A stretch of DNA of 64,000 bases, from assembly GCF_017948245.1 (NCBI RefSeq), contig NZ_CP072865.1, forward strand, positions 3,373,501 to 3,437,500. The letters are read 5' to 3'. The notes under the pieces are model-generated. The model was not told the DNA's origin. It ran no database searches and saw only the letters and a list, made by a program, of their open reading frames with translations. Within the stretch, counting starts at the first letter, position 1, and each line of letters opens with the position of its first letter. Made by a program: the position numbers and the translations under genes. The DNA comes from Rhizobium sp. NLR16a. Its GTDB lineage: Bacteria > Pseudomonadota > Alphaproteobacteria > Rhizobiales > Rhizobiaceae. Positions 5,057 through 14,066 of the stretch are shown here, in pieces.

Positions 5057-5133
5057 TGGTACGGTTGGGGGGTCTCGAACCTCCGACCTCAGGTGCCACA
5101 AACCTGCGCTCTAACCAACTGAGCTACAACCGC
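5057..5133 (-). tRNA. tRNA-His (anticodon GTG)
   Basis: The reverse complement folds as a complete cloverleaf of 77 bases with an encoded CCA tail. The anticodon loop is TTTGTGGCA, giving GTG. The acceptor stem pairs G1 with U72 and the discriminator is A73; the base before G1 is U. There is therefore no encoded G-1 opposite a C73, unlike most bacterial tRNA-His. This non-canonical form is known in a group of alphaproteobacteria whose histidyl-tRNA synthetase adapted to it. Confidence 0.97.
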
Positions 5134-5817: not shown

Positions 5818-5925
5818 GTCGTTAACCCTTTCGGCTGAAAGCACCCCGCTGTTCTGGACCGGCGTGCGACCTGCAGTTATTAATAAGCCGTTAATTTAGA
5901 AGGCCGACAGCGACAAGGTTTGATC

Positions 5926-8900
5926 ATGCCCGCAGTCCAATATCCGTTCATCGATATCGCCGTGCATGCGCGGGTGCGGGAACGCTTTTCGCGCGGCGAG
6001 GCCATGGTGCTATTTTCGGCCGATCTTGCCCGCCTGCTCTGGGCAAACGGCGCAGGCGCGGAGCTTTTCGGCCATTCGGCGGTCTACGACCTGCTCGACC
6101 AGGGAGCCGATCGCACCGACATCACCTTTCGCCAGCTGGAAACGGCGGCGCGTCAGCTCGCCGATATCGGCGACAACAGAAGCCTGATGATCCGGGTCGC
6201 CAAGGGCTTCCAGCGCGTGCAGGTGCAGGCGGCGGCCGAACTGATCCGGCTTTCATCAGGCGAGAAGGCTATTCTGTTTTCCGTGCCGGTGTCGGCAAGG
6301 CCGCTAACGGCGGGCGCTGCGGCGGCCCAGATGCTGCAAGGTCTCGATGATCCCGACACGCATATGGCCGTCATCGGCGCCAATGGCGAGGTCATCGCGG
6401 CCTCGCCCGGCTTCGCCTCGCTCGCCATATCAGGTGAGACCGCAAAGGCCTTGATCAATCTTGCCGGCGCGCATCCCGATCGCCTGGTGAAGCGCCCGGT
6501 CGCCACCGGCAGGGGTTATCTTCCGGCAGCAGTCGGCAGGCTCAGCGACGAGCCGGCGCTCAATCTGCTCTTTGCCGTGGAAACCGCGATCGGTCATCTG
6601 GATCCGACCGATGCGCCCGTGCTCGACGCAGTCGATGCACCCCCGCAGGCGGCTGACGCGCCGGCGAGGGAAGAAGGCACGTCGTCATCCGAACTTCCTC
6701 CGCAAGAGGCGGCTGCGGCGACCGGCTTCGGCGAGATCGTCAATGCCGTCTCGGGAATCGAAGAGGTCGAGGAGACACTGGAGGAGATCGCCGACGACCG
6801 GGAACAGCCGGCCGAGGCGGCTGCCACCACCGCAGAGGCGGCGGTTGCGGACGAGAATCCGACCGCAAAGGAAGCGGCGGAGAACGACGACGCGACCGAG
6901 AGCCGCATGGATGAGGCCGACGAGCCCGCGGCGCCCGTCGATGAGGCCGCGAGCCATTCCGCCGACGAGACGGCGGAAGCGACCGCGATGGCGGGGACAC
7001 CCGCCGAGACCAGCCAAATGCCGCGCGATGAGGCGCCGGACGCCGCGCGCGAAGAGCCGGCCATCGCAGCCGACGCGCCCCCTCCCGCGTCGCTTGCGCC
7101 CGAGCCTGGTTTCGTCTTCAGGCCGAACAGCCGCGCCACCCGCTTCGTCTGGAAGATCGATGCGGAAGGCCGGTTCAACGAAGTCAGTCACGAATTTGCC
7201 GAGGCCGTCGGTCCGCATGCATCCGCTATCATCGGCTCTGCCTTCAGCGACATCGCCGCTCTCTTCAATCTCGACCCCGACGGCAAGATTTCCGAGGCCC
7301 TTGCGCGCCGCGACACATGGTCGGGGAAGACGATCCTCTGGCCGGTCGAAGGCACCAGCCTCGTCGTTCCGGTCGATCTCGCCGCACTGCCGACCTATAC
7401 CCGCAGCCGCGACTTCGACGGCTTCCGCGGCTTCGGCGTCGTCAGGCTTTCCGATACGCAGGAGGATCCGCTGGCGCTCGGCCTGACGCTTGGCCCGGAC
7501 GGTGTCGGCCATGATGCGGCAGGCCCCGGCCCGGCGGCCGACGCTATCAGCGAACCGGCACACGAGATTGACGTCGCGCCCGAAGCGGCCCCGGCAGAAA
7601 CGATCGCGGCGGACGTGATCGAGGACCACCCTCAGATCGAAGAGACGCCTTTCGAAGCGGCCGGAGGGGAGGCCGGCTTCGAGCCGCCCACCCGGGAGAG
7701 CGCCGCCGAAGAGGTGCAGGAGAGCGCCGGTGAAGGGCTGGCGGCCGATGCCGCAGACGAACCCCCGGCGCTTCGCATCGTGGAAACGCCCAATCGCCGT
7801 TCCACCGACAAGGTGGTGCAGCTTCACAGCACAGGCGCCGCATTGACGGCCGCCGAACAGGCGAACTTCCGCGAAATCGCCAAGCGCCTGGAAGCCTTCG
7901 GCGCCCGCAGGGAGGAGCCCGACACCCCGGCGCCGACGGGCACCACCGCCACGGAACCGGCGGCTTTCGAAGAAAGCGCGGCGCCCGAAGCCTTCACCGG
8001 CGAAACGCCCGGCGCCGATACGCCCGACACAGCTTCGGCCGAGGAGATTGCGCCGCAGGAAGCGATCTTCGAGAAGGCGGCCGAGTCGTTGCGCGAAGAC
8101 GGCGCCGCGGAAGAACCCGCCGCCATCACCGAGGACGAGGCGACGGAAGGGCTCGAGGAGACGGTCAGCCAGATCGAGGTTCTCACAAGCTTCATCCCGC
8201 CGCGCGTGAAGATGATTGACGGGCTTTCGGCCGGAACGGTCGACCAATTGCCCGTCGCGGTGCTTATCCATGTCGGCGATGCGCTGATCCATGCCAATCC
8301 CGAATTCATGCGGCTGACGGGCTACCAGTCGCTCGACGCGCTGCGTGAGGTTGGCGGTATCGAAGCCCTGCTGCAGCGGCGCGAACTTGAGGAAAAGGCA
8401 GCCGGTTCCGGCACCATGATGCTGGTCAAGGCCGACGACACGCTGACACCGGTGACTGCGCGGCTGCAATCGGTGCGCTGGGAAGATGCCAATGCTCTGA
8501 TGCTGGCGCTGATGCCGGTGGAAGGCAAGGAGGATGGCCGCGGCGACAGCAACCGGTCCGAAGCGCGTCCGGAGCGGATGGTCGAGAAGGTCGCCAAGCT
8601 TCAGGTCGAGGTCGAGGAATTGCGCTCGATCCTGGAAACGGCGACCGACGGCGTCGTCGTCATCGGCACCGAGGGCGATATCCGTTCGATGAACCGGTCG
8701 GCGAGCGCGCTGTTCAATTACGACGAGCAGGAGACGCGCGGCAAACCCTTCGTCATGCTGTTTGCCCATGAGAGCCAGAAAGCCGTCCTCGACTATCTGA
8801 ACGGCCTTGCCGGCCACGGCGTGGCAAGCGTGCTGAACGACGGGCGCGAAGTGATCGGCCGCGAGGCCGGCGGCGGCTTCGTGCCGCTGTTCATGACGAT

Positions 8901-9720
8901 GGGCCGGCTTACCTCCTCGAACGGTTATTGCGCCGTCATCCGCGATATCACCCAGTGGAAACGCACCGAGGATGAGCTGCGCAATGCCAAGGGCGCGGCC
9001 GAAACCGCCAACGCCCACAAGACCGATTTCCTCGCGCGCGTCAGCCATGAAATCCGCACGCCGCTCAACGCCATCATCGGCTTTTCCGACATGATGGCCG
9101 GCGAGCGCTTCGGTCCGATCGGCCATCCCCGATATATCGAATATGCCAACGATATCGGCCGCTCCGGCCGGCACGTCCTGGATATCGTTAACGATCTCCT
9201 CGATATTTCGAAGATCGAGGCGGGCGAGATGGATCTTGACTTCGCCGCCGTCGGCCTCAACGAGGCGGTCTCAGAGGCCGTCGCCCTCGTCCAGCCGCAG
9301 GCAAACGGCCAGCGCGTCATCATCCGCACGGCGCTGTCCCATTCGGTGCCCGAGGTCGTAGCCGATCTGCGCTCGATCAAGCAGATCGCGCTCAACATCC
9401 TGTCGAACGCCATCCGCTTTACGCCGTCTGGCGGACAGATCGTCGTTTCCACCTCCTACGAGGCGAATGGCAGCGTGGTGTTGAGGGTTCGCGATACCGG
9501 CATCGGCATGACGCGCGCCGAACTCGACCATGCGATGAAGCCGTTCCGCCAGGTCTCCTCGACCCAGTCACGCCATCGCGGCGACGGCACCGGGCTCGGC
9601 CTGCCGCTGACCAAGGCGATGGTGGATGCCAATCGGGCGACATTCTCGATCAATTCGGCGCCGAACGAAGGCACGCTTGTCGAGATCACCTTCCCGTCGC
9701 AACGTGTGCTGGCTGGCTGA
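5926..9720 (+). CDS. pdhS: large cytoplasmic PAS-domain sensor histidine kinase, PdhS/DivJ/PleC type
   Basis: 1264 residues with no membrane segment. PAS-like sensory segments lie near residues 405-510, 755-860 and 880-1000. They are joined by two long Ala/Glu/Pro-rich acidic stretches (about 225-395 and 535-745) that look disordered. The C-terminal kinase has the H-box FLARVSHEIRTPLNAIIGFS, N-box NILSNAIRFTPSGG and G-boxes DTGIGM and GTGLGLPL. The segment after the H-box (MMAGERFGPIG, YIEYANDI, SG-HVLDIVNDLLDISKIEAG) is typical of the alphaproteobacterial kinases that act on DivK. PdhS kinases control cell-cycle and polarity decisions in Brucella and relatives, so that role is inferred by family. 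The start at 5926 (MPAVQYPF) follows AAGG; a TTG two codons earlier is less likely. Divergent from the phasin gene. Confidence 0.82.
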   Translation: MPAVQYPFIDIAVHARVRERFSRGEAMVLFSADLARLLWANGAGAELFGHSAVYDLLDQGADRTDITFRQLETAARQLADIGDNRSLMIRVAKGFQRVQVQAAAELIRLSSGEKAILFSVPVSARPLTAGAAAAQMLQGLDDPDTHMAVIGANGEVIAASPGFASLAISGETAKALINLAGAHPDRLVKRPVATGRGYLPAAVGRLSDEPALNLLFAVETAIGHLDPTDAPVLDAVDAPPQAADAPAREEGTSSSELPPQEAAAATGFGEIVNAVSGIEEVEETLEEIADDREQPAEAAATTAEAAVADENPTAKEAAENDDATESRMDEADEPAAPVDEAASHSADETAEATAMAGTPAETSQMPRDEAPDAAREEPAIAADAPPPASLAPEPGFVFRPNSRATRFVWKIDAEGRFNEVSHEFAEAVGPHASAIIGSAFSDIAALFNLDPDGKISEALARRDTWSGKTILWPVEGTSLVVPVDLAALPTYTRSRDFDGFRGFGVVRLSDTQEDPLALGLTLGPDGVGHDAAGPGPAADAISEPAHEIDVAPEAAPAETIAADVIEDHPQIEETPFEAAGGEAGFEPPTRESAAEEVQESAGEGLAADAADEPPALRIVETPNRRSTDKVVQLHSTGAALTAAEQANFREIAKRLEAFGARREEPDTPAPTGTTATEPAAFEESAAPEAFTGETPGADTPDTASAEEIAPQEAIFEKAAESLREDGAAEEPAAITEDEATEGLEETVSQIEVLTSFIPPRVKMIDGLSAGTVDQLPVAVLIHVGDALIHANPEFMRLTGYQSLDALREVGGIEALLQRRELEEKAAGSGTMMLVKADDTLTPVTARLQSVRWEDANALMLALMPVEGKEDGRGDSNRSEARPERMVEKVAKLQVEVEELRSILETATDGVVVIGTEGDIRSMNRSASALFNYDEQETRGKPFVMLFAHESQKAVLDYLNGLAGHGVASVLNDGREVIGREAGGGFVPLFMTMGRLTSSNGYCAVIRDITQWKRTEDELRNAKGAAETANAHKTDFLARVSHEIRTPLNAIIGFSDMMAGERFGPIGHPRYIEYANDIGRSGRHVLDIVNDLLDISKIEAGEMDLDFAAVGLNEAVSEAVALVQPQANGQRVIIRTALSHSVPEVVADLRSIKQIALNILSNAIRFTPSGGQIVVSTSYEANGSVVLRVRDTGIGMTRAELDHAMKPFRQVSSTQSRHRGDGTGLGLPLTKAMVDANRATFSINSAPNEGTLVEITFPSQRVLAG

Positions 9721-9764: not shown

Positions 9765-9791
9765 AAAAAAAAGGCAGCCGGAGGCTGCCTT
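9765..9791 (-). terminator. intrinsic terminator (3' end of the candidate sRNA and/or aacS)
   Basis: 9-bp perfect stem AAGGCAGCC/GGCTGCCTT with a 3-base loop and eight consecutive T on the minus strand. On the plus strand only two T follow, so it is mainly a minus-strand terminator and only weakly serves the converging kinase gene. Confidence 0.85.
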
Positions 9792-9890
9792 GAATGGGTG
9801 CTGTTCAACAAGAGCTCAGTCGATCAACGTCATGTTTCGTAAGCCCGGAGGCTTCAGGCCGCCTCGTTCATGTGCGGCCCCCAAGTTGTT
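9765..9890 (-). ncRNA. candidate trans-acting small RNA (alpha-r14/suhB-like) between pdhS and the acetoacetyl-CoA synthetase gene
   Basis: Read on the minus strand, the gap between two convergent genes holds three consecutive hairpins. SL1 is GGCCGC/GCGGCC (9857-9879) with an 11-base loop. SL2 is AAGCC-UCCG-GGCUU (9841-9854). SL3 is the terminator AAGGCAGCC-UCC-GGCUGCCUU (9771-9791), followed by eight U. SL2 and SL3 both show CCUCC at the loop, an anti-Shine-Dalgarno motif as in the rhizobial alpha-r14/NfeR1 small RNAs (Rfam suhB family, from memory). Length about 120-126 bases fits that family. The 5' end is approximate, since no clear -10 box was found. Upstream is a direct repeat of AAACCTTT (9902-9909 and 9917-9924). 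It could instead be the structured 3' untranslated region of the synthetase mRNA. Confidence 0.62.
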
Positions 9891-9975
9891 TCACCTTTGA
9901 CAAAGGTTTCTTAACGAAAGGTTTCCATGACAGGGGATTGCTGAATGGTGAAAGCTTGTGGTTTACGGCTCCTTA

Positions 9976-11928
<1,953 letters not shown>

Positions 11929-12173: not shown

Positions 12174-14066
12174 ATGAGCACGTCTAGACATCGCAGGTGG
12201 CGCAGGAAAATCGGGCCCGTTTCGCGCTGGCTTCCGGCCTTCGCCCGCATGTCGACGCTGTTTCTGCTGGTTGCGCTTGCACTGTTCGTGGCCCTCAGGG
12301 TCGCAGCGCCCTATCTCATCACGACGGGTTTCGTGCGCTCCGGCATCGAGGATGCGCTGTCGAAATGGACGGGCTACCATGCCGAGATCAAGGGTAATCC
12401 GGTTCTCGAATTCTGGCCGACGCCGCGCATCACGCTGAACCAGGTCACCATCCGCCAGCCGCGCGAAAGCGGCGACAAGCTGCTCGGCAGTATTGAAAGC
12501 CTGTCGGCGGATTTCAGCCTCATCGATGCGCTGAGAGGCCGGACGAGTTTCCACGAATTCCATCTGCTGCGGCCCAACCTGGCGCTGACGCGTGATGAGA
12601 ACGGCCTGATCGACTGGAGTTACGCCGGCCTGCTTGCGCGCGCGATCAGCGGCGTGCGCTACGAAAACGGGGCTGAGCTGCTCGATCCCGCTCTCGATGC
12701 CGAGATCGGTGCGGTGACCGTCGAGGACGGCACGCTTGCCGTCACCGACGTCAAGAGCGCCAAGACTTACAATTTTGACAGCGTCACGGCCGACATCGGC
12801 TGGCCACGGCTCTCGGGCGCGATCTCGGCTGTCGTGATCGCCCGTATCAACGGCGTGGACCTGAAGGTGGATTTCGCCTCGCGCCAGCCGCTGCTCGCCT
12901 TTGCCGGCAAGAGCGCCGAGACGCGGACATCGCTGACGTCAAACCTGCTGACGGCCCGTTTTCAAGGGATCGCCAGCATCGCCAGCCTTTCGGCGCTTTC
13001 CGGCAATATCGCCGTCAGCATTCCCGATGTGCCGGCGTTTCTGACATGGTCGGGCAGATCGCTCCCCGGCGTCGGCACGCTGAAGAGCGCCTCGCTGGAA
13101 TCCGACATCATGTCATCGGGCAGCGGGCTGCGTTTCAACGATCTCAGCCTGTCGCTGAACGAGGCGAGCGCCACCGGCGTGATGGACCTTACGACTAGGG
13201 CCGGCAGACGGCCGAAGATCGGCGGCACGCTCGCCTTCGACCAGATGAACCTGAAGCCGTTCCTCGACGCTTTCGCGCTGCGATTGGCGGCGGGTGAGGC
13301 GGAGGAAATCTCCACCGGCATCAGCGCACCGCTGCAACTGCTCGACGTCGACGTCAGGCTTTCGGCGCGGCGCGCTGAGATGGGCCGCTTCGAGCTTTCC
13401 GATGTCGGCGCCAGCATGATCGTCACCGGCGGCGAGGCCAAGTTCGATATCGGCGACAGCGGCTTCGAAGGCGGCGAAATGACGGCGCATCTGGAGGCGA
13501 CGCGGCGCGACTTCGACGGCGGCGGCAAGCTGCAGCTGTCGATCCGCGATGCCGACTTCGCCGGCCTTGCCGAGCGTCTGCAGCTCAAAGGACCGCTGCC
13601 GCTTGCGACGGGATCGCTCGATCTCGACCTGCAGTCGTCGAAGGCGATCTGGACGGCCGGTCTTGCCGACGTCACCGGCAAGCTGCATTTCTGGACGAGG
13701 GAAGGCACGATTCCCGGCGTCGACTCCGGCGCGCTCAGGACACAGGCGGCCCAAAAGCCGTTCTTTCCACTGAGTGCCGCAGCCGGCAGCGCTTTCGCGT
13801 TCAACCAGTTGGAACTTCGGGCCGATTTCGCCAACGGCTCCGCCGAAATCCATGACGCCCATGTTGTCGGGCCGACGCAGACGCTGGCGCTTTCCGGCGT
13901 GGTCACCTATCAGTCCAACGGGCTGGCGCTTTCCGGTTCTCTGGAGGCGACCGATCCGGCCAAGGCGGCAGAGCTGCCGCTTCTGCCGTTCTTCGTGGGC
14001 GGCTCATGGCCGAATCCGGTGATCTCGCCGGTTCCGCTTTTTGGCGGCACGCCCCACGCGCAATAA
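12174..14066 (+). CDS. AsmA family protein
   Basis: 630 residues. A basic N-terminus (RHRRWRRK) precedes one membrane anchor at about residues 25-45 (STLFLLVALALFVALRVAA). The AsmA N-terminal domain follows, with the characteristic early segment GIEDALSKWTGYHAEIKGNP and FWPTPRITLNQVTI, then a long beta-rich periplasmic body. The ending GGSWPNPVISPVP is typical of AsmA-like C-termini. AsmA-like proteins are inner-membrane proteins linked to outer-membrane assembly or bridge-like lipid transport; the exact job of this paralogue is unknown. Divergent from acetoacetyl-CoA synthetase; the gene 30 bases downstream converges on it. Confidence 0.85.
   Translation: MSTSRHRRWRRKIGPVSRWLPAFARMSTLFLLVALALFVALRVAAPYLITTGFVRSGIEDALSKWTGYHAEIKGNPVLEFWPTPRITLNQVTIRQPRESGDKLLGSIESLSADFSLIDALRGRTSFHEFHLLRPNLALTRDENGLIDWSYAGLLARAISGVRYENGAELLDPALDAEIGAVTVEDGTLAVTDVKSAKTYNFDSVTADIGWPRLSGAISAVVIARINGVDLKVDFASRQPLLAFAGKSAETRTSLTSNLLTARFQGIASIASLSALSGNIAVSIPDVPAFLTWSGRSLPGVGTLKSASLESDIMSSGSGLRFNDLSLSLNEASATGVMDLTTRAGRRPKIGGTLAFDQMNLKPFLDAFALRLAAGEAEEISTGISAPLQLLDVDVRLSARRAEMGRFELSDVGASMIVTGGEAKFDIGDSGFEGGEMTAHLEATRRDFDGGGKLQLSIRDADFAGLAERLQLKGPLPLATGSLDLDLQSSKAIWTAGLADVTGKLHFWTREGTIPGVDSGALRTQAAQKPFFPLSAAAGSAFAFNQLELRADFANGSAEIHDAHVVGPTQTLALSGVVTYQSNGLALSGSLEATDPAKAAELPLLPFFVGGSWPNPVISPVPLFGGTPHAQ

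Follow-up and report, generated by a model that had tools for sequence, protein, structure and literature searches.

The window analysed here is the whole 64,000-nucleotide stretch taken from the Rhizobium sp. NLR16a genome. Within it, the gap that separates the acsA2 stop (9976) from that of a convergent histidine kinase gene (9720) is predicted to encode, on the minus strand, a structured RNA of ~120 nt (9767–9886) with an intrinsic terminator at its end. The features of the locus are as follows.

5920..9720, plus strand: PdhS-like histidine kinase, the convergent neighbour, with HisKA, HATPase_c and PAS domains
9765..9770, minus strand: U run, predicted 3' end of the RNA
9765..9791, minus strand: predicted intrinsic terminator, stem AAGGCAGCC/GGCUGCCUU plus U run (94.7% of cells paired; terminator scan)
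9767..9886, minus strand: predicted small RNA gene (covariance-model matches over the whole model length; alignments A1 and A3)
9799..9817, minus strand: conserved linker GAGCUCUUGUUGAACAGCA (alignments A1 and A3)
9826..9836, minus strand: second AUGA element, AAC-AUGAC-GUU, a small hairpin or single strand (2 of 3 pairs changed on both sides)
9841..9854, minus strand: variable hairpin SL2, loop UCCG (66.4% of cells paired)
9856..9880, minus strand: hairpin SL1, with a hypervariable stem and AUG(A) kept in the loop (both-side change in 6 of 7 pairs)
9886, minus strand: predicted 5' end of the RNA, an A; first letters ACUUGGGG
9893..9898, minus strand: −10-like element AAAGGT (22 representatives: A conserved in 19 and, four bases apart, T in 20)
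9911..9925, minus strand: CtrA-like box GAAA-CCTTTCG-TTAA (matches at 6 of 8 positions; begins at −39 relative to the predicted 5' end)
9976..11928, minus strand: acsA2, acetoacetate–CoA ligase, the same-strand upstream neighbour (TIGR01217, 1055 bits, cut-off 521)
12174..14066: AsmA-family gene, beyond acsA2

For the kinase, the best NCBIfam model is PdhS (NF041593), with a score of 1002 bits that lies below the cut-off of 2000. Folding of the minus strand over 9765–9890 gave an energy of −48.6 kcal/mol, compared to −34.6 ± 3.6 kcal/mol for 200 dinucleotide shuffles (z = −3.92), none of which was as good. The minimum-energy fold holds three hairpins, SL1, SL2 and the terminator, the last of which was also recovered by the terminator scan as a 9-bp stem (9791–9771) followed by the U run. 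A previous sequence-only reading of this DNA had described three minus-strand hairpins ending in a U run, placed between a convergent pdhS-like kinase gene and an acetoacetyl-CoA synthetase gene, and the fold, the terminator scan and the two stops confirm this description. Its suggestion that the gap between the protein genes holds a regulatory-type small RNA gene of ~120 nt likewise appears to be correct.

Distribution and structure of the RNA family

With the DNA between the stops of acsA2 and the kinase as query, matches were found in 36 of 61 genomes, 35 of these being among the 37 searched in the genus (G002 and G020 gave no DNA match). One match in another family, spanning 34 query bases (E = 0.0056), was counted as chance. 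In the more distant genomes, the matched DNA consists of the RNA plus ~40 bp upstream of it.

With a covariance model built from 25 sequences (R1), matches at E ≤ 0.01 were obtained in 79 of 394 Rhizobiaceae genomes, and those with the poorest scores are doubtful. A better model, built from 27 diverse sequences (R2), matched 75 of the 394 genomes at E ≤ 1e-4, distributed over 19 of 109 genera. The R2 matches fall in a single place per genome, apart from one assembly with two, and plasmid records gave no match. In an order-wide scan, matches at E ≤ 0.001 came from 17 of 397 genomes, comprising 14 Rhizobiaceae and three false matches (L201–L203), which were rejected as homologues and are read as the end of a coding sequence followed by a terminator. 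The coding tail is presumably the GGM tail of a GroEL-type protein; in combination with a terminator it mimics the second AUGA element and terminator of the model, and is liable to be picked up by searches as a false positive.

Scanning named genomes with a sequence pattern yielded at least 119 stretches, of which, judged by their titles, at least 99 belong to Rhizobium or its relatives and at least 20 to distant taxa. The stretches from distant taxa were taken as chance; ten of them were run against R2, and none matched at E ≤ 1. Carriers among the stretches listed include Allorhizobium borbori, Ectorhizobium quercum, Gellertiella hungarica, Ferirhizobium litorale and R. johnstonii 3841. When 42 loci were run against R2 (20 from the family and order scans and 22 of the 119 named stretches), 32 matched at E ≤ 1, the three false loci included. 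One of the homologues (L109) is from R. rhizogenes, a species represented by strain C16/80 in the agrobacterial differential RNA-seq data of PMC10469942.

The consensus structure was drawn by hand on alignment A3, which contains 27 distinct sequences, and was compared with shuffles that do not preserve kinship among the sequences. Paired cells amount to 83.8%, compared to 74.9 ± 0.9% in these shuffles; both sides are changed in 18 of the 22 stem pairs, compared to 9.3 (none of 500 shuffles reached 18), and double-change cells number 73, compared to 20.1 ± 4.6. Sliding the stem partners by 1 to 3 columns left only 33–51% paired, a control that is biased towards the structure because the structure came from the same sequences. 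SL1 and the terminator are shown by covariation, and the RNA has a conserved structure with compensatory changes, as is characteristic of an independent trans-sRNA gene.

The SL1 stem is swapped wholesale between genera (GGCCGC/GCGGCC, UCAUCC/GGAUGA, CACAGG/CCUGUG, CCGGCC/GGCCGG) with AUG(A) kept in the loop: among 70 distinct homologues, the loop region contains AUG in 67 and AUGA in 51. The second CAUGA is present in 70/70, a count that holds partly by construction, because the motif sat in the pattern by which some of the named loci were recruited. This second element can form AAC-AUGAY-GUU or GAC-AUGAU-GUC, and its outer pair is A-U in 9, G-C in 8 and G-U in 6 of the 27 aligned sequences; the mini-hairpin is regarded as tentative, because the minimum-energy fold of the window itself pairs the element otherwise. 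Pairing of the 5' CUUGGG with CUCGAG/CCUAAG of the linker, as a long-range helix, fits by eye and is not claimed here, as it lacks support from covariation. Its pair counts were equalled in 69 and 151 of 500 shuffles, and an alignment-free test on 73 sequences gave a mean score of 11.8 compared to 9.6 for shuffles, a test that is weak in the window's clade.

The AUG of the first loop, with its near-fixed spacing after a purine run in the 67 homologues that have it, would also suit a small mRNA or dual-function RNA, in which GGGG or GAGG is followed after ~7 nt by an AUG that opens a micro-ORF. However, the frame varies from 1 to more than 30 codons and specifies unrelated peptides (only MNEAA in the window), and the second AUGA is equally conserved without such a leader. 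With neither length nor peptide conserved, a micro-ORF was rejected as the main reading, and a coding function of this kind seems very improbable.

The sequence-only reading had further proposed that two of the loops carry CCUCC, and act as anti-Shine-Dalgarno sequences. The string does occur at both hairpins, the first copy at the SL2 loop and the second spanning the terminator loop, but in the fold it is partly paired, with only UCCG and UCC exposed. Among the 70 distinct homologues, CCUCC was found in the SL2 region in 7, in the terminator in 12 and at both in 2, and the SL2 loop of some species holds a palindrome; the anti-Shine-Dalgarno loops, which in unpaired form would be expected of an alpha-r14/NfeR1 RNA, are thus not a property of this family. 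The palindromic inserts (~35 to 100 nt; L007, L008, L010, L011 and L022) do not disrupt SL1, the second AUGA or the terminator. Since the SL2 loop tolerates them, it is unlikely to be a seed. The palindrome core matches five places in the Rhizobium sp. NLR16a genome, and we take the insert to resemble the RIME elements of Rhizobium.

Promoter region and neighbouring genes

In 55/55 loci, 33 of which belong to one genus, the RNA is preceded by a box resembling TTAA-N7-TTAA, whose first base lies 39 to 41 bases upstream of the first position of the RNA model. The box matches at eight of eight positions in 6 loci, seven in 21, six in 25 and five in 3, while mononucleotide shuffles give eight, seven and six matches in 0.07, 1.3 and 11.6% of cases, respectively. 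At least TAA-N7-TTAA is present in 25/55 loci, and the second half is exactly TTAA in 47/55. The box of the window itself is imperfect, with GAAA as its first half, as in the rest of its clade. Among three control stretches, one (−110 to −70) contains six or seven of eight matches in about half of the loci when position is ignored. In 22 representatives, with the box columns anchored on the best match, T11, T12 and A3 are each found in 22/22, and the half-site columns reach up to 2.3 bits, while none of the 20 columns that precede the box exceeds 0.6.

The signature of CtrA is a pair of TTAA half-sites set 11 bp apart across the −35 region. In the excerpts consulted, the consensus for S. meliloti is given as TAA-N7-TTAAC (PMC3616915), and in Caulobacter the full motif TTAA-N7-TTAA, with its 5' base at −39, activates ctrA P2 (PMC4287350); the latter paper lists 6 non-coding RNAs just ahead of its description of the CtrA motif. 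Judged by the position and composition of the box, the promoter of the RNA is probably controlled by CtrA.

In genus g97 (L197–L200 and L204), acsA2, the box, an ACTTGAG start, a similar linker and the terminator are kept, and the AUGA hairpins are replaced. As the promoter is kept there with a swapped RNA body, the promoter would be older or more constrained than the body of the RNA.

The gene acsA2 lies directly upstream of the RNA, on the same strand, in 30/30 oriented loci of a first set, in which the kinase is within reach in 24/30, and in 24/30 loci of a second set, which shares three places with the first. The terminator scan detected no other terminator between the acsA2 stop and the RNA in the window, so that acsA2 messages may well end at the hairpin of the RNA. 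Both observations are compatible with a structured 3' untranslated region of acsA2, which would terminate and stabilise the mRNA and perhaps be processed to a 3'UTR-derived sRNA, with no promoter of its own. Against this, six loci of the second set keep the RNA with acsA2 not adjacent (1.5 kb examined per side), and in the same genera acsA2 is also absent from the 8-kb stretches L117, L150, L068 and L184, the 10.5-kb L207 and the 7-kb L208. In L049, L050 and L052, the upstream gene is AsmA-like (28–41% identical to that of the window) and points away from the RNA, the kinase converges, and the RNA, box and terminator are all kept. In L054–L056, from the genus of Rhizobium sp. Leaf262, the RNA, with a perfect CtrA-like box, lies 107–125 nt after an open frame, with acsA2 not adjacent; in L055 and L056, the two in which the family was tested, this frame encodes an ABC transporter permease (BPD_transp_1). 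In addition, conservation outside the RNA is strongest at bases that together resemble the footprint of a promoter. Since the RNA is kept where acsA2 is not adjacent, it should have its own promoter and cannot be solely the 3'UTR of acsA2, and we regard an explanation by the 3'UTR as unlikely. A predicted promoter of its own in combination with an intrinsic terminator is the arrangement of an independent trans-sRNA gene. A link to PHB, for which the neighbour acsA2 is the sole basis, is unsupported; acsA2 is not adjacent in the six loci mentioned.

Comparison with known small RNAs

At the RNA locus no Rfam family scored above its cut-off; relaxing the threshold to E ≤ 10 brought up just two weak matches, one to a trypanosome snoRNA and one to a Brucella sRNA terminator. 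Membership of alpha-r14/NfeR1 or suhB, as suggested by the sequence-only reading, was not borne out by the covariance models of Rfam, neither of which matches at the locus. In the window the gathering score was not reached by alpha-r14/NfeR1 (RF02344), by suhB/MmgR (RF00519; suhB is now described as MmgR in Rfam 15) or by alpha-r15/AbcR (RF02345), and all three were rejected. Elsewhere the same genome contains five ar14 copies, a genuine suhB copy (C1:197370-197441) and two ar15 copies in tandem (C1:868469-868804); the ar14 and suhB copies indicate that the family names suggested earlier apply to other loci of this genome. The RNA represents a family without any matching entry in Rfam 15, for which a covariance model is now given. 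Separately, the only Rfam match above cut-off in the window is a tRNA gene (5060–5133, minus strand) with GUG in the anticodon loop, probably a tRNA for His.

Published small RNAs were compared on the basis of excerpts of the papers cited. The RNA resembles alpha-r14/NfeR1 in its size of ~120 nt and in having hairpins whose stems are hypervariable and whose loop motif is fixed (for alpha-r14, PMC7143759), but the motif is AUG(A) here and anti-Shine-Dalgarno in alpha-r14. MmgR, which is linked to PHB storage (PMC7143759), and alpha-r15/AbcR are likewise rhizobial sRNAs, but do not match at this locus.

EcpR1 (SmelC291) and GspR are S. meliloti trans-sRNAs tied to the cell cycle (PMC4414408, PMC5928217). 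EcpR1, considered in view of the cell-cycle neighbour, was rejected as it has another locus and another loop: it is situated between divK-pleD and rpmG, and its loop is UCCGCCGCAUCU (PMC4414408). GspR differs in being located between SMc03844 and SMc03845 (PMC5928217), and is likely restricted to Sinorhizobium (PMC7143759). CcnA of Caulobacter crescentus is comparable in being an alphaproteobacterial small RNA controlled through a CtrA box, but is 182 nt long, lies at the replication origin and has its CtrA box at −23; its CCCC loop pairs with GGGG of the ctrA and gcrA leaders, and according to the excerpted text no homologue of the CcnA type was clearly detected in S. meliloti (PMC8959179).

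SmelC165 and SmelC151 are single-copy chromosomal sRNAs on the plus strand with relatives in Sinorhizobium and Rhizobium (PMC3927594, PMC7143759). SmelC165 is 116 nt long and maps to S. meliloti 910182–910297, plus strand (PMC3927594, PMC7143759); in a presumed Sinorhizobium genome (G130), R2 places the homologue of our RNA at 934039, also on the plus strand. On position and strand, SmelC165 would be the likeliest published counterpart and SmelC151 the second. In the excerpts, SmelC165 differs by an atypical terminator stem and by having no relative in A. tumefaciens C58, and SmelC151 (843451–843524) by its length of 74 nt and fragmented microsynteny (PMC3927594). The literature searched held no text tying an sRNA to acsA2 (SMc00774 in the excerpt of PMC5596199), and the main-text portions of the R. 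etli and S. meliloti sRNA papers held no fitting coordinates or gene names.

Possible targets and mode of action

Sites complementary to the second AUGA element (ACAUGAYGUU; searched as AACRTCATGT) were found at 29 places in the genome, none of them at a credible start codon; among the 29, L226 is the opposite strand of the RNA gene itself, and L240 lies ~30 nt inside an open frame. In leaders of ctrA (15) and gcrA (14) from carriers of the RNA, the mean longest complementary run was 6.5 nt in both sets, compared to 6.2 nt for shuffles, and a CcnA-like RNA was rejected on the grounds that complementarity to the ctrA or gcrA leaders is not conserved. An earlier duplex test on the same kind of leaders (z from −2.2 to 2.2) was not discriminating, because near full-length duplexes were formed.

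That no complementary target emerged from the start-codon, ctrA and gcrA searches would agree with a CsrB-like titration of a protein, in which the AUGA loops are protein sites rather than antisense seeds; such an RNA would also be expected to combine a hypervariable stem with a short, invariant loop motif, and to repeat that motif. However, the motif is present in only two copies per RNA, and we know of no protein that binds AUGA loops. Titration is accordingly considered quite unlikely.

We therefore favour, on the sequence evidence, a stand-alone trans-acting sRNA gene of ~120 nt that belongs to a new family and has its own promoter, one probably driven by CtrA. The promoter would lie in the gap between acsA2 and the kinase, with the CtrA-like box over its −35 region, and transcription would then be likely to follow active CtrA in the cell cycle. 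The transcript would comprise, in order, SL1 with its drifting stem and AUG(A) loop, the variable SL2, the second AUGA, the linker and the Rho-independent terminator. The SL1 loop and the second AUGA would be the most likely contacts with partners, and could quite plausibly pair with UCAU-type sites in mRNAs, with Hfq helping at the U tail.

A more speculative proposal, to which we give little weight, is that the RNA forms a CtrA-driven sRNA arm of the Rhizobiaceae cell-cycle circuit, with the twin AUGA elements acting on mRNAs for the cell cycle or polarity. Its targets might then include the convergent pdhS-like kinase gene, whose 3' end the RNA faces, and the feedback would be analogous to that of CcnA in Caulobacter, but with another RNA and other targets. 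Two sRNAs of S. meliloti, EcpR1 and GspR, are described in the excerpted text as acting on the cell-cycle circuit (PMC7143759). A single-copy sRNA kept in 19 or more of the 109 Rhizobiaceae genera sampled, if transcribed from a CtrA-like promoter, would tie RNA regulation to the master regulator of the cell cycle.

Transcripts of acsA2 probably end at the terminator of the RNA, which would double as the 3' end of the acsA2 message where the two genes are adjacent.
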